Part shown: piece after piece, positions 6,268-55,359 of the stretch
How positions within the stretch are numbered: position 1 is the stretch's first letter
Layout: each line of letters begins with the position of its first letter
Assembly: GCF_900176885.1 (NCBI RefSeq)
Contig: NZ_LT839648.1
Coordinates: 1,205,049 to 1,269,048, forward strand
Direction of reading: 5' to 3'
DNA length: 64,000 nt
From: Oceanobacillus senegalensis
GTDB lineage: Bacteria > Bacillota > Bacilli > Bacillales > Amphibacillaceae
Notes under the pieces: model-generated
What the model was told of the DNA's origin: nothing
Seen by the model: only the letters and a program-made list of their open reading frames with translations
Databases searched by the model: none
Position numbers and translations under genes: made by a program

Positions 6268-6342
6268 TCCACAGTAGCTCAGTGGTAGAGCAATCGGCTG
6301 TTAACCGATCGGTCGTAGGTTCGAATCCTACCTGTGGAGCCA
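6268..6342 (+). tRNA. tRNA-Asn (GTT)
   Basis: Complete cloverleaf with 7-bp acceptor stem TCCACAG/CTGTGGA, D stem GCTC/GAGC, anticodon GTT at 6300-6302, T stem GTAGG/CCTAC, discriminator G and encoded CCA. First gene of the six-tRNA cluster. Confidence 0.96.
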
Positions 6343-6346
6343 ACAT

Positions 6347-6420
6347 GGCGGTGTAGCTCAGCTGGCGAGAGCGTACGGTTCATACCCGTGAGGTCGTGGG
6401 TTCGATTCCCTCCGCCGCTA
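6347..6420 (+). tRNA. tRNA-Met (CAT), elongator type
   Basis: Cloverleaf with acceptor GGCGGTG/CGCCGCT, anticodon CAT at 6381-6383 and T loop TTCGATT. It closely resembles the known Bacillus elongator tRNA-Met. The 3' CCA is not encoded (TCA follows the discriminator), and the T stem GTGGG/CCCTC holds a T-T mismatch, so this may be a slightly decayed copy. Confidence 0.85.
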
Positions 6421-6457
6421 TCATACTTTATTGGACAGATTATATCATACAAAATAT

Positions 6458-6534
6458 GGCGGTCGTGGCGAAGTGGTTAACGCACCGGATTGTGGCTCCG
6501 GCATTCGTGGGTTCGATTCCCACCGGTCGCCCCA
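6458..6534 (+). tRNA. tRNA-His (GTG)
   Basis: Cloverleaf with the extra 5' G at position -1 opposite discriminator C, characteristic of tRNA-His. Acceptor GCGGTCG/CGGTCGC, anticodon GTG at 6492-6494 in the loop TTGTGGC, T stem GTGGG/CCCAC, encoded CCA. Confidence 0.96.
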
Positions 6535-6551
6535 TATAAAGAAATAGTAAC

Positions 6552-6628
6552 GGACCCTTAGCTCAGTTGGTTAGAGCTATCGGCTCATAACCGATCGGTC
6601 GCAGGTTCGAGTCCTGCAGGGTCCACCA
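6552..6628 (+). tRNA. tRNA with CAT anticodon, probably tRNA-Ile2 (lysidine-modified)
   Basis: Perfect acceptor GGACCCT/AGGGTCC, anticodon CAT at 6586-6588, T stem GCAGG/CCTGC, discriminator A, encoded CCA. The body resembles the Bacillus isoleucine tRNA whose CAU is converted to lysidine-AU by TilS, and differs from both the elongator tRNA-Met beside it and the initiator. Automated tools may label it tRNA-Met. Confidence 0.85.
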
Positions 6629-6647
6629 TTTTATTTTCATATTTCTT

Positions 6648-6740
6648 GGAGGTATACCCAAGTCTGGCTGAAGGGATCGGTCTTGAAAACCGACAGGCGG
6701 GTCAAACCGCGCGGGGGTTCGAATCCCTCTACCTCCTCCA
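6648..6740 (+). tRNA. tRNA-Ser (TGA)
   Basis: Class II tRNA with a long variable arm (about 6695-6712) and anticodon TGA at 6684-6686. Acceptor GGAGGTA/TACCTCC is perfect and CCA is encoded. The discriminator base reads T where bacterial tRNA-Ser usually has G. Confidence 0.93.
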
Positions 6741-6772
6741 TATATATGAAATACATAAAATATAATAAAATT

Positions 6773-6845
<73 letters not shown>

Positions 6846-29232: not shown

Positions 29233-29251
29233 ATGATGCGGATGATTACAA

Positions 29252-29470
29252 GGGGAGAGCTTACTTTCAGACAGTAACGCCGAAGGAGCAAGCAACTATG
29301 TGAATCTCTCAGGCAAAAAGACTCTTGTAGGACGCAACTCTGGAGAGTGTTTACAAAGTAAACCGCCTACGAAGCAAGTATTTTTATTCAGGTTAACTCC
29401 TAGTAAAGATACGCAACTTTCTGGTTGAAGGACAGAGATTTCTCATTCATGGAGAAATTCTGTCCTTTTA
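29252..29470 (+). ncRNA. Glycine riboswitch (tandem aptamers) controlling gcvT
   Basis: Aptamer 1 (about 29252-29347) has the hallmark stretches GGGGAGAGC, GCCGAAGGAGCAAGC, CTCTCAGGCAAAAAGAC and CTCTGGAGAG. Aptamer 2 (about 29348-29425) is more divergent: CCGCCTACGAAGCAAG, then TTCAGGTTAACTCC and ending ACTTTCTGG. An expression-platform hairpin follows (GGACAGAGATTTCTC with GAGAAATTCTGTCC, 29430-29465) and then TTTTATAG. Glycine binding is known to switch the Bacillus version on, so the hairpin is the default terminator. The leader ends 39 bp before gcvT. Confidence 0.92.
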
Positions 29471-52392: not shown

Positions 52393-53277
52393 GTGTCTGA
52401 AAAGATTCAAGATTATATTACAGAGTATCGAGGGTTAATTGAAAAAGAGTTAACTGAAAGCCTTCGTAAATTATCTATTCCGAGTCAATTGAAAGAATCC
52501 ATGTTATATTCTGTGCAAGCAGGTGGTAAAAGGCTGCGTCCAATCCTCCTTCTATCAAGCTATCAAGTGTATGATGGTAATTACAACAAAGCAATGTCTT
52601 CAAGTATAGCACTGGAAATGATACATACCTATTCCCTAATACATGATGATCTTCCAGCAATGGATGATGACGACTATCGTAGAGGAAAGCTGACGAACCA
52701 TAAGCAGTTTGATGAAGCAACTGCTATTTTAGCTGGTGATGCTTTATTAACCTATAGTTTTGAGGTTGTTGCAGATGACCCAAACTTAACAGAACAGCAA
52801 AAAGTAGAAATTATGAAAATGTTGTCGATTTGCAGTGGCCCTAAAGGTATGGTAGCTGGACAATTTCTGGACATGGAAGCAGAAGACCGTGAGATTACTT
52901 TAGAAGAACTGGAACAAATTCATGTTCAAAAGACGGGTCAGTTACTGGAATTTGCTATCTATGCAGGAGCATTCCTTGGAGGAGCAAGTAGAGAACAATT
53001 GGAACATCTAAAAGACTTTGCATATTATTTAGGATTAATTTTCCAAGTCCAAGATGATATTCTTGACGTCACTGGTGACGAACAGAAGCTTGGTAAACCT
53101 GTTGGAAGTGATGAAGGAAACGAAAAGGGAACCTATCCAAAATTACTTGGTCTTAAAGGCGCTATGAAACAAAAGGAAAAATATGTAGAAAAAGCCTATC
53201 AAGCATTACGTAAAGCAGAGGCTGATCATTCCTATTTAATGGAATTGACGGATTACTTTAGCAATCGTGATTACTAG
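52393..53277 (+). CDS. ispA: Farnesyl diphosphate synthase (polyprenyl synthetase)
   Basis: 294-residue isoprenoid chain elongation enzyme. First Asp-rich motif D-D-L-P-A-M-D-D-D-D-Y-R-R-G (about 83-96) and second D-D-I-L-D (about 222-226) bind Mg-diphosphate; G-K-R-L-R-P (about 45-50) binds IPP. GTG start with GAGGAAG upstream. In B. subtilis dxs follows; here the OLE RNA gene and oapA follow and dxs is absent. Confidence 0.95.
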   Translation: MSEKIQDYITEYRGLIEKELTESLRKLSIPSQLKESMLYSVQAGGKRLRPILLLSSYQVYDGNYNKAMSSSIALEMIHTYSLIHDDLPAMDDDDYRRGKLTNHKQFDEATAILAGDALLTYSFEVVADDPNLTEQQKVEIMKMLSICSGPKGMVAGQFLDMEAEDREITLEELEQIHVQKTGQLLEFAIYAGAFLGGASREQLEHLKDFAYYLGLIFQVQDDILDVTGDEQKLGKPVGSDEGNEKGTYPKLLGLKGAMKQKEKYVEKAYQALRKAEADHSYLMELTDYFSNRDY

Positions 53278-53305
53278 TTTTATTCTAGATGAATAAATAA
53301 ATTTT

Positions 53306-53314
53306 TGTTATAAT
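53306..53314 (+). promoter_or_regulatory. Extended -10 promoter in front of OLE RNA
   Basis: TGTTATAAT: a perfect TATAAT with a TG one base upstream, ending 12 bp before the predicted 5' stem of OLE RNA. A weak -35 (TAGATG, 53286-53291) lies 17 bp upstream. This suggests OLE is transcribed on its own in addition to read-through from ispA. Confidence 0.6.
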
Positions 53315-53326
53315 AGACCTATATAA

Positions 53327-53923
53327 GGAATGGTGCAGTATTCTAGTCAGTCCTCCTATCTTGAAGGCGGGCCTAAAAATCCGCTAAAGGGCACATCGAT
53401 GAAGTTCCTTGTGTTGGCTTGAGGCGCCCAGCCTTGGGTCAGTGCTGGGAGTTAAGGATTTCGGGCGATCCACAAAGGCATGTGGGCGTTGACCCGATTT
53501 CCGCGGAGGCCCATCTCTGTGGGGATAGCTAAGCCTAGTTATCTTTATGGAATGGGGTATGAACCTGCAAAGTTTGGTAAGGGACACCTTATATGCAGCG
53601 TAGCCTGTCTTGAGTGGTGCTGAGGGGATTAGATGATCAGCACTAGATTTAGATGGCCACTGGATCTAGTGCTAATGTCTATGAAATCAGTACTGCAAAA
53701 GAGACTAGGGATAGGTTAAAGGCTGTGGAGGAAATCTCCTAGACTGTTCATTTTGACTTTTAAAAGGGATTATAGTGCGGACTAAGTGGTAATCTAGTCT
53801 AGCTTTTGGCGACAAAGCTAAGATGGATTTAAAAGGGAACTGCCTTCATGGCGACATGGGGTATCTATCTGGGAAAACCTACTAGACCTAAGCCGCAGTC
53901 TTAACCTTTTAAAAGACCATTCC
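53327..53923 (+). ncRNA. ole: OLE RNA (ornate, large, extremophilic)
   Basis: About 600 nt without a usable reading frame, GC-richer than its surroundings, between ispA and oapA, the diagnostic place of OLE RNA in Bacilli. The ends pair: GGAATGGT (53327-53334) with ACCATTCC (53916-53923). Internal stems include AGCACTAGAT (53639-53648) with ATCTAGTGCT (53664-53673) and CGGG (near 53462) with CCCG. OLE RNA forms a membrane-bound complex with OapA and is linked in B. halodurans to tolerance of cold, alcohols and to magnesium/energy stress. Identification comes from locus, length and structure; I could not run the Rfam model RF01071. Confidence 0.9.
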
Positions 53924-53952
53924 ATTTACATAATGTATGATTGAGGTATTGT

Positions 53953-54528
53953 ATGAACTCACAATTAAAACGTTCTCTTAAGTTTAGCTTTTCTATCGCC
54001 GTTATCACATTTGTGTTAGCGGCTATTTTTTCAGTTGTTTCATCTTCTATTTTGAGTGGTGTAGTATGGATAACAGGGCTTCTAATCGTATTCTTAATAG
54101 TGCTAGTAGGAGTGGTCTTTGACATGCTAGGAATAGCCGCTACTGCTGCAGATGAGACACCATTCCATGCAATGGCTGCCGAAAAAATACCAGGAGCAAA
54201 AGAAGCTGTTTATCTTGTCAGAAACGCAGACCGGTTTGCCAGCTTTTGTAACGATGTGATTGGAGATATTTCAGGTATTGTAAGTGGAACAGCATCTGGA
54301 ATGGTTGTATTACAAATTGCAACACTCTTAAATCAGAGTGAGGGATCTCCAGGACAACTGATTTTATCAACGTTTTTAACGAGTGTTGTAGCTGCAGTCA
54401 CAGTGGGTGGAAAAGCTGTTGGAAAAACCATGGCAATTAATAGTTCCACTAAAATTATATATTTTGCAGGAAAAATTCTTTTTATATTGCAAAATAAGTT
54501 GAAACTAAAAATTATAAAAAAAAATTAA
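53953..54528 (+). CDS. oapA: OLE-associated membrane protein OapA
   Basis: 191 residues with four membrane helices (about 12-32, 36-57, 118-133, 138-155) and the conserved soluble stretch between helices 2 and 3 (D-E-T-P-F-H-A-M-A-A-E-K-I-P-G-A-K-E-A). The C-terminus is very basic (K-L-K-L-K-I-I-K-K-N), suited to RNA. OapA is the known protein partner holding OLE RNA at the membrane; it resembles DUF21 magnesium transporters. ATG 53953 with GAGGT upstream is preferred over a TTG at 53941. dxs, which usually comes next, is absent. Confidence 0.88.
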   Translation: MNSQLKRSLKFSFSIAVITFVLAAIFSVVSSSILSGVVWITGLLIVFLIVLVGVVFDMLGIAATAADETPFHAMAAEKIPGAKEAVYLVRNADRFASFCNDVIGDISGIVSGTASGMVVLQIATLLNQSEGSPGQLILSTFLTSVVAAVTVGGKAVGKTMAINSSTKIIYFAGKILFILQNKLKLKIIKKN

Positions 54529-54549
54529 ATGTTAAAAAGGATAGGCTAA

Positions 54550-55359
54550 ATGAGCAAAAAACGACTTGATGAATTATTGGTAGAAAGAAATCTTGCTCAA
54601 ACAGTTGAAAAAGCAAAGCGTCTAATAATGGCAGGACTTGTTTTTTCGGAGCAGGAAAGATTAGATAAAGCTGGTATGCAAGTGAAATCGGATATCCCGT
54701 TAAACGTAAAAGGCAAACAAAATCCTTATGTAGGGCGTGGTGGATTAAAACTAGAAAAGGCTCTTACTTTTTTCTCAGTGGGTGCTAAAGATAAAATATT
54801 AATTGATATTGGCTCTTCTACAGGAGGTTTTACAGATTGCGCATTACAGCATGGAGCTAAACTAAGTTATGCGATTGATGTGGGATATAATCAACTAGAT
54901 TGGAAACTAAGAAATGATGTCCGCGTAGTTGTAATGGAACGAACGAATTTTAAACACGTTACAGCTGATATGCTACATAAAGGTAAGCCCAATTTGGCAA
55001 CAATCGATGTTTCCTTCATTTCTCTAAGACAGATTCTTCCTGTTCTAAAGCATTTATTACTAGAAAATAGTGATATTATAGCATTAATAAAGCCACAGTT
55101 TGAAGCAAAAAGAGAAGAAGTGGGAGAAAATGGAATTGTTCGTGACAAAATTGTTCACTTAGAGGTATTAAATAAAATTATTGATTTTGCTAAGAATGAG
55201 TCATATGAGTTATTAAATTTAACATTTTCACCGATAACAGGTGGAGAGGGAAATATTGAATTTCTTGCTCATTTCGGTTGGGATAAAAAAGGGAGAACGA
55301 AAAATCAATTAGATATCGAAAAAATAGTAAAAGAGGCGCACGTTCAATTAATGAAATAG
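54550..55359 (+). CDS. yqxC: TlyA-family rRNA methyltransferase (YqxC)
   Basis: 269 residues: N-terminal S4 RNA-binding domain (1-60, R-L-D-E-L-L-V-E-R) and an FtsJ/RrmJ-like methyltransferase domain with the SAM loop [11 protein letters not shown] (about 82-92). The family 2'-O-methylates rRNA; in Bacillus it is linked to ahrC and recN as here. It was also called a haemolysin in older annotation. It starts 21 bp after oapA, so OLE/oapA may be co-transcribed with it. Confidence 0.93.

Follow-up and report, generated by a model that had tools for sequence, protein, structure and literature searches.

Where does the primary transcript of an OLE RNA end, and what sets the ratio of this RNA to its partner protein OapA? 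Few structured RNAs of bacteria are as large as OLE, and what it does is still unsolved. The question is raised here by a locus of Oceanobacillus senegalensis lying in a window of 64,000 nucleotides (nt), which is the whole stretch of DNA that was analysed (contig NZ_LT839648.1 of assembly GCF_900176885.1, positions 1,205,049-1,269,048). The locus is a genuine and complete OLE RNA gene together with its partner gene oapA, and inside the coding sequence of oapA a conserved hairpin followed by a run of T was found, which the original prediction on this DNA, made from the sequence alone, had not seen. Selection on the nucleotides of this element is well supported, and in the window's order the element probably serves as an intrinsic terminator or attenuator of the OLE transcription unit. 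No prior description of the hairpin was found in a literature search that did not reach every earlier OLE paper.

The full element occupies 53998-54031 (oapA codons 16-27) and begins 45 nt into the gene. Its stem is composed of seven pairs, one U.U mismatch and three further pairs, closed by a loop of four nt, and its consensus reads GCCGTTATCAC-NTTY-GTGYTAGCGGC-TATTTTTT. A stable hairpin followed by a U-run is what defines an intrinsic terminator, and both parts are present here. As in intrinsic (Rho-independent) terminators and leader attenuators, a hairpin of about -14 kcal/mol precedes a T-run, whereas the oapA hairpin differs from these in lying inside a coding sequence, in retaining an internal mismatch, and in having a stem that is near-fixed across families, also outside the coding context. 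An Rfam scan of 53930-54120, with E values up to 10, returned six chance-level matches, none of them near its gathering score. The element was first noticed in another genome (G011) in which OLE and oapA are gone and the hairpin alone is left between ispA and tlyA; this scar, GCCGTTATCACGTTAGTGTTAGCGGCTTTTTT, is the same as the window's oapA from codon 16.

The evidence for constraint comes mainly from a codon test, for which 108 oapA genes were found, 107 of them with the motif (L027 was dropped), and 99 distinct ones were used. Codons of the stem are near-frozen (GCC in 98/99 genes, GTT, GTG and GCG in 99/99 each, and ATC for 97/97 isoleucines), and those of the T-run are frozen as well (ATT for 89/89 isoleucines and TTT for 99/99 phenylalanines). 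The threonine codon ACN, whose third base falls in the loop, is found in all four forms (47, 26, 21 and 5), and most codons flanking the element vary synonymously, unlike those of the stem and T-run. Codon entropy, given as H/Hexp, is below 0.3 in 12 of the 73 conserved oapA columns tested, ten of which belong to the hairpin or T-run and two to serine, while the median outside the element is 0.95. Moreover, synonymous shuffles with the protein held fixed have a mean minimum free energy (MFE) of -6.8 for the element, as compared with -14.4 observed; the mean z is -2.39, with 85/99 genes under -2, whereas five control stretches of oapA have mean z values of -0.43 to +0.23, with 2 to 12 of 99 genes under -2. 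On 40 distinct rows, 91.4% of cells are paired versus 28-64% when the arms are slid, and pair 7/26 varies in RNA-compatible ways (U.G, U-A and C-G). The sequence of the element is itself under constraint.

The hairpin was also searched for in the genomes of the window's order, with the 26-nt hairpin (T-run excluded, at most one mismatch) as pattern and the reversed pattern as control. The pattern is present in 266 of 397 genomes, one copy in each, and the reversed control in 0 of 397, while OLE is present in 225. Both occur in 212 genomes, OLE only in 13, the hairpin only in 54 and neither in 118. Loci were inspected in 39 of the 54 hairpin-only genomes and in 50 of the 118 OLE-less ones that lack the pattern (48 plus G023 and G007). 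Of the 39 hairpin-only loci, 38 lack an oapA match and have the hairpin 72 to 415 nt upstream of a dxs match, with ispA seen before it in 37 of these 38; the remaining one (L257) is at a contig edge and still has oapA. A T-run of at least four T within 10 nt after the stem is found in 36/36 distinct OLE-less loci. The anchored identity of OLE-less copies is 0.28-0.47 in the flanks versus 0.82-0.93 in the following T-run, and among 19 diverse OLE-less loci it is 0.28-0.32 in the flanks versus 0.82 in the 8 nt after the stem, while stem identity in such loci is biased by the pattern search. In addition, 19 of the 48 OLE-less loci that fail the pattern have a variant hairpin, with a loop of 3, 5 or 6 nt or with an altered stem, for example GCTGTTAGCAC-GTGTTGACAGC.

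At three OLE-less loci (L241-L243), oapA-like codons still stand before the hairpin and are the scar of a deletion. A forward open reading frame of at least 50 codons spans the hairpin in 8 of the 38 OLE-less loci, so that a non-coding status is not proven for every OLE-less hairpin, and one of these frames (L241) reaches dxs. At L241 (G595), the open frame crossing the hairpin into dxs has 669 codons, and the oapA scar may by now encode the N-terminal part of an extended Dxs.

The genus Oceanobacillus is losing OLE. Among its 28 genomes, an OLE match was found in 7 and is of full length in 6; in G004 (L029), the match is 394 nt long, scores 133.8 bits and has a large internal deletion, and oapA matches there in two pieces with stops and frame changes, with the hairpin intact. 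In the 21 OLE-less genomes of the genus, tlyA comes next after ispA, at a distance of 4 to 290 nt. In a tree of IspA with 147 rows (a single gene, FastTree, unrooted), the OLE label changes 15 times, or 10 times if the count is restricted to hairpin carriers and the relic.

If the element is a terminator or attenuator, RNA polymerase would initiate upstream of OLE and synthesize an OLE RNA of about 620 nt plus the start of oapA, and a fraction of the polymerase would halt at the T-run. The primary OLE transcript would then be about 700 nt long, and oapA, and dxs where present, would be reached by read-through only. Read-through might be possible when a ribosome that has entered oapA masks the hairpin, and upon deletion of OLE and oapA the hairpin would be retained as a leader hairpin before dxs. 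Termination of RNA polymerase at the T-run, promoter use and gating by the ribosome are predictions. A stop-signal-like hairpin in the coding sequence of OLE's obligatory partner suggests, in concrete and testable form, how OLE RNA and OapA could be kept in proportion, and the terminator reading predicts a definite 3' end of the primary OLE transcript. Moreover, the hairpin outlives OLE and oapA before dxs, which ties the OLE locus to the control of isoprenoid synthesis genes; OLE-less species with the hairpin can be used as controls, and codon changes near the oapA start in rescue constructs may not be neutral.

Several observations weigh against a terminator. Plain terminators usually drift in sequence, and the near-fixed stem is at odds with this expectation. 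A generic consensus terminator scan of 53200-54600 returned 0 sites, being silent at the oapA hairpin because its rule forbids an internal mismatch. A promoter score of at least 9/12 is reached in 34/36 OLE-less loci, but also in 49% of shuffles. Pair 10/23 is unpaired in 34/40 rows, and one pair has changed on both sides, in 3/40 rows; as covariation is this weak, the case for the hairpin is built on the frozen synonymous positions, on the shuffles and on the T-run. The hairpin is dispensable, since the pattern at up to one mismatch is missing from 13 of the 225 OLE-bearing genomes of the order and the motif from one of the 108 oapA genes (L027). OapA is present in 289 of the 398 phylum genomes searched, and among these 289 the pattern at up to two mismatches occurs in the window's genome alone. 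In addition, 40 distant oapA loci, inspected by eye, have other residues in the first helix and no such stem. At up to two mismatches, the pattern was found in 3 of the 398 phylum genomes, all with 0 mismatches, and the reversed control in 5 (G110, G155, G269, G327 and G428), so that two-mismatch matches carry no meaning. The element is therefore a feature of the window's order and not of OLE generally, as it was not found alongside OapA elsewhere among these phylum genomes.

A near-fixed stem, where terminators usually drift, suggests a sequence-specific reader, which would explain its invariance. It is possible, if rather doubtful, that the hairpin acts as an RNA switch of the order's ispA-dxs isoprenoid locus, recognized by its sequence and with a trans-acting reader of its own. 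OLE and oapA would lie between promoter and terminator, so that the OLE RNA would be a giant leader whose state would contribute to read-through into oapA and dxs, and OLE-less species would keep a short version before dxs, in which a promoter and a brief leader precede the same hairpin.

The near-invariant and almost palindromic sequence, single in each genome, would also suit a DNA operator, that is, a two-fold symmetric repressor or activator site for the ispA-dxs region lying within oapA by chance. This is unlikely, because the spacer between the half-sites ranges from 3 to 6 nt; furthermore, a T-run follows, and pair 7/26 is kept as U.G, U-A or C-G, which an operator need not retain. Another improbable explanation is that the OLE RNA truly ends with the hairpin, as a 3' domain that has a structural or protein-binding role in the ribonucleoprotein, with the ole gene overlapping oapA. 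The hairpin stands directly behind OLE, is conserved in sequence as OLE is, and accompanies it in 212/225 OLE-bearing genomes of the order; however, it is still present in genomes that have neither OLE nor oapA and was not found with OapA outside the order. Pairing of its arms with OLE was tried and rejected as not above chance, since 256 and 71 of 300 shuffles did as well in energy as the arms. Finally, the view that the residues AVIT(F/L)VLAAIFS, nearly invariant in the aligned OapA proteins, are a fixed membrane-helix motif of which the hairpin is a by-product, with the OLE-less copies as decaying relics as the oapA-like codons at L241-L243 might suggest, is largely refuted by the codon test and very improbable, since third positions are frozen only in the stem and T-run, distant OapA proteins do not retain the motif, and OLE-less copies keep the T-run far better than their flanks.

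Table 1. Coordinates of the features of the OLE-oapA locus, as positions in the window.
Feature	Position	Strand	Basis
ispA (farnesyl diphosphate synthase), upstream neighbour	52393-53277	+	PF00348 E 2e-61; NCBIfam NF045485 412 bits, over cut-off
Probable OLE promoter: TAGATG 53286-53291, 17 nt, TATAAT 53309-53314	53286-53314	+	inferred
OLE RNA (RF01071), full length	53314-53936	+	covariance-model match
Terminal helix, 5' arm GGAATGGT	53327-53334	+	exact complement of 53916-53923
Palindrome CATCGATG	53394-53401	+	conserved segment 3' of first hairpin
UGGCCA, self-complementary loop of long hairpin	53654-53659	+	matches P9 kissing-loop dimer contact
Terminal helix, 3' arm ACCATTCC	53916-53923	+	exact complement of 53327-53334
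GAGG, probable oapA ribosome-binding site	53943-53946	+	sequence, inferred
oapA, 191 aa, CNNM/CorB-like membrane protein	53953-54528	+	position, alignment, fold
Conserved hairpin GCCGTTATCAC-ATTT-GTGTTAGCGGC, oapA codons 16-24	53998-54023	+	MFE -14.3 kcal/mol, z -5.4
T-run TTTTTT after hairpin, oapA codons 25-27	54026-54031	+	sequence
tlyA/yqxC (23S rRNA methyltransferase family), directly downstream of oapA	54550-55359	+	TIGR00478 281 bits

The OLE gene of the window is an ordinary copy, one of thousands. A cmscan search against all of Rfam matched RF01071 over model positions 1-616 of 616 at 533.6 bits (E 1.1e-153; gathering cut-off 50 bits), and the genome holds no second match. The original prediction had named OLE and proposed a covariance-model search as its check, which the full-length match bears out; it had also described the stretch between ispA and oapA as non-coding and GC-richer, and indeed no plus-strand gene is called there after the ispA stop at 53277 and the GC fraction is 0.456 versus 0.344 for the window. 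Its further description, 597 nt with pairing ends, holds in that the stretch is bounded by exact complements, but the RNA match itself is 623 nt long, and the right boundary that it gave (54528) is really the last base of the oapA stop codon. That it adds a natural variant is true no more than of any other copy, 2,822 OLE matches having been published for Bacillota (PMC11332333). As with other OLE RNAs accompanied by OapA, the locus has a full-length match, the order ispA-OLE-oapA, the kissing-loop sequence and a single copy per genome, while it differs in that the window's genus has no dxs between oapA and tlyA.

In 92 of 100 relatives' loci (those of 109 in which the OLE 5' end was located), compared with 41% of shuffles, a -10-like box (TATAAT-like) precedes the conserved 5' end of OLE; the probable promoter of the window is not listed by a generic promoter scan because its -35 box has just 3/6 matches. 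A palindromic OapA site has been placed near P4a in the OLE literature, and the palindrome of Table 1 is possibly part of it, an assignment that is our own and made from the sequence. Moreover, the P9 loop retains self-complementarity (TGGCCA, judged by its letters only), and a kissing contact of the OLE dimer is described in PMC12265935.

For oapA, the best start is the ATG at 53953, 17 nt after the end of the RF01071 match, in place of the TTG at 53941 used in the list of open reading frames. The four-helix protein that the original prediction had taken for OapA is indeed OapA by its position, its fold and its alignment over the whole length with the OapA frames of 27 other OLE loci (44-84% identity), the nearest named ones being from Oceanobacillus (O. 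halophilus, 84%). Its predicted model has long helices at residues 3-34, 39-65, 92-125 and 133-163, with short ones in between. The model superposes on MtCorB and CorC, a fold like that of their membrane domain being possible, the likeness to PF01595 (CNNM transmembrane domain) being 21 bits, under the curated cut-off of 28.4; OapA further differs from this family in an extra N-terminal helix, in having no CBS/CorC domains, and in a last transmembrane helix without an acidic residue. A counterpart of the Mg2+-coordinating Glu111 of MtCorB was looked for in this helix, and residues 135-165 hold no D or E; the position falls on K154 by hhalign and on T150 by hand alignment, the register being uncertain. 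The published proposal that OapA is a CNNM-type Mg2+ exporter, in which the OLE RNA replaces the CBS/CorC regulatory domains, is plausible and somewhat short of probable.

OLE-bearing species have been reported as typically having at most one full CNNM-CBS-CorC protein. Three such proteins (L030, L031 and L032 of G000 C4) are encoded in one genome together with OLE and OapA. Counted above the Pfam cut-off, CNNM matches number 3, 2, 1, 2, 2 and 3 in the six genomes of the genus with intact OLE (mean 2.2), 3 in the genome with decayed OLE, and 2.5 on average in the 21 OLE-less ones, and an anticorrelation of MpfA with OLE inside the genus was not clearly seen in these 28 genomes, counted by hand.

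In the window, there is no dxs between oapA and tlyA (53953-54550), while among 30 relatives' loci (L148-L177) the gene after oapA is dxs in 25 and tlyA in 5. The search for oapC, suggested with the original prediction, found it as a YbxF orthologue between an rpoC-like open reading frame and rpsL; this candidate scores 89.8 bits versus an NCBIfam cut-off of 113, and its best PDB chains are YbxF. A search for OapB by the KOW motif gave seven matches in the genome, the small candidates among them being a DUF2187 protein (L309) and the spore protein SspH (L310), and the PDB matches of L309 include no OapB chain. Many genomes of the genus contain long open frames that match IspA; a 798-aa protein (L314, G000 C4 2103200-2107400) ends in a polyprenyl synthetase domain (537-769), and its first 500 residues have no Pfam match. 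Elsewhere in the window, a glycine riboswitch aptamer lies at 29242-29334 (73 bits) and a cluster of six tRNA genes at 6268-6845.
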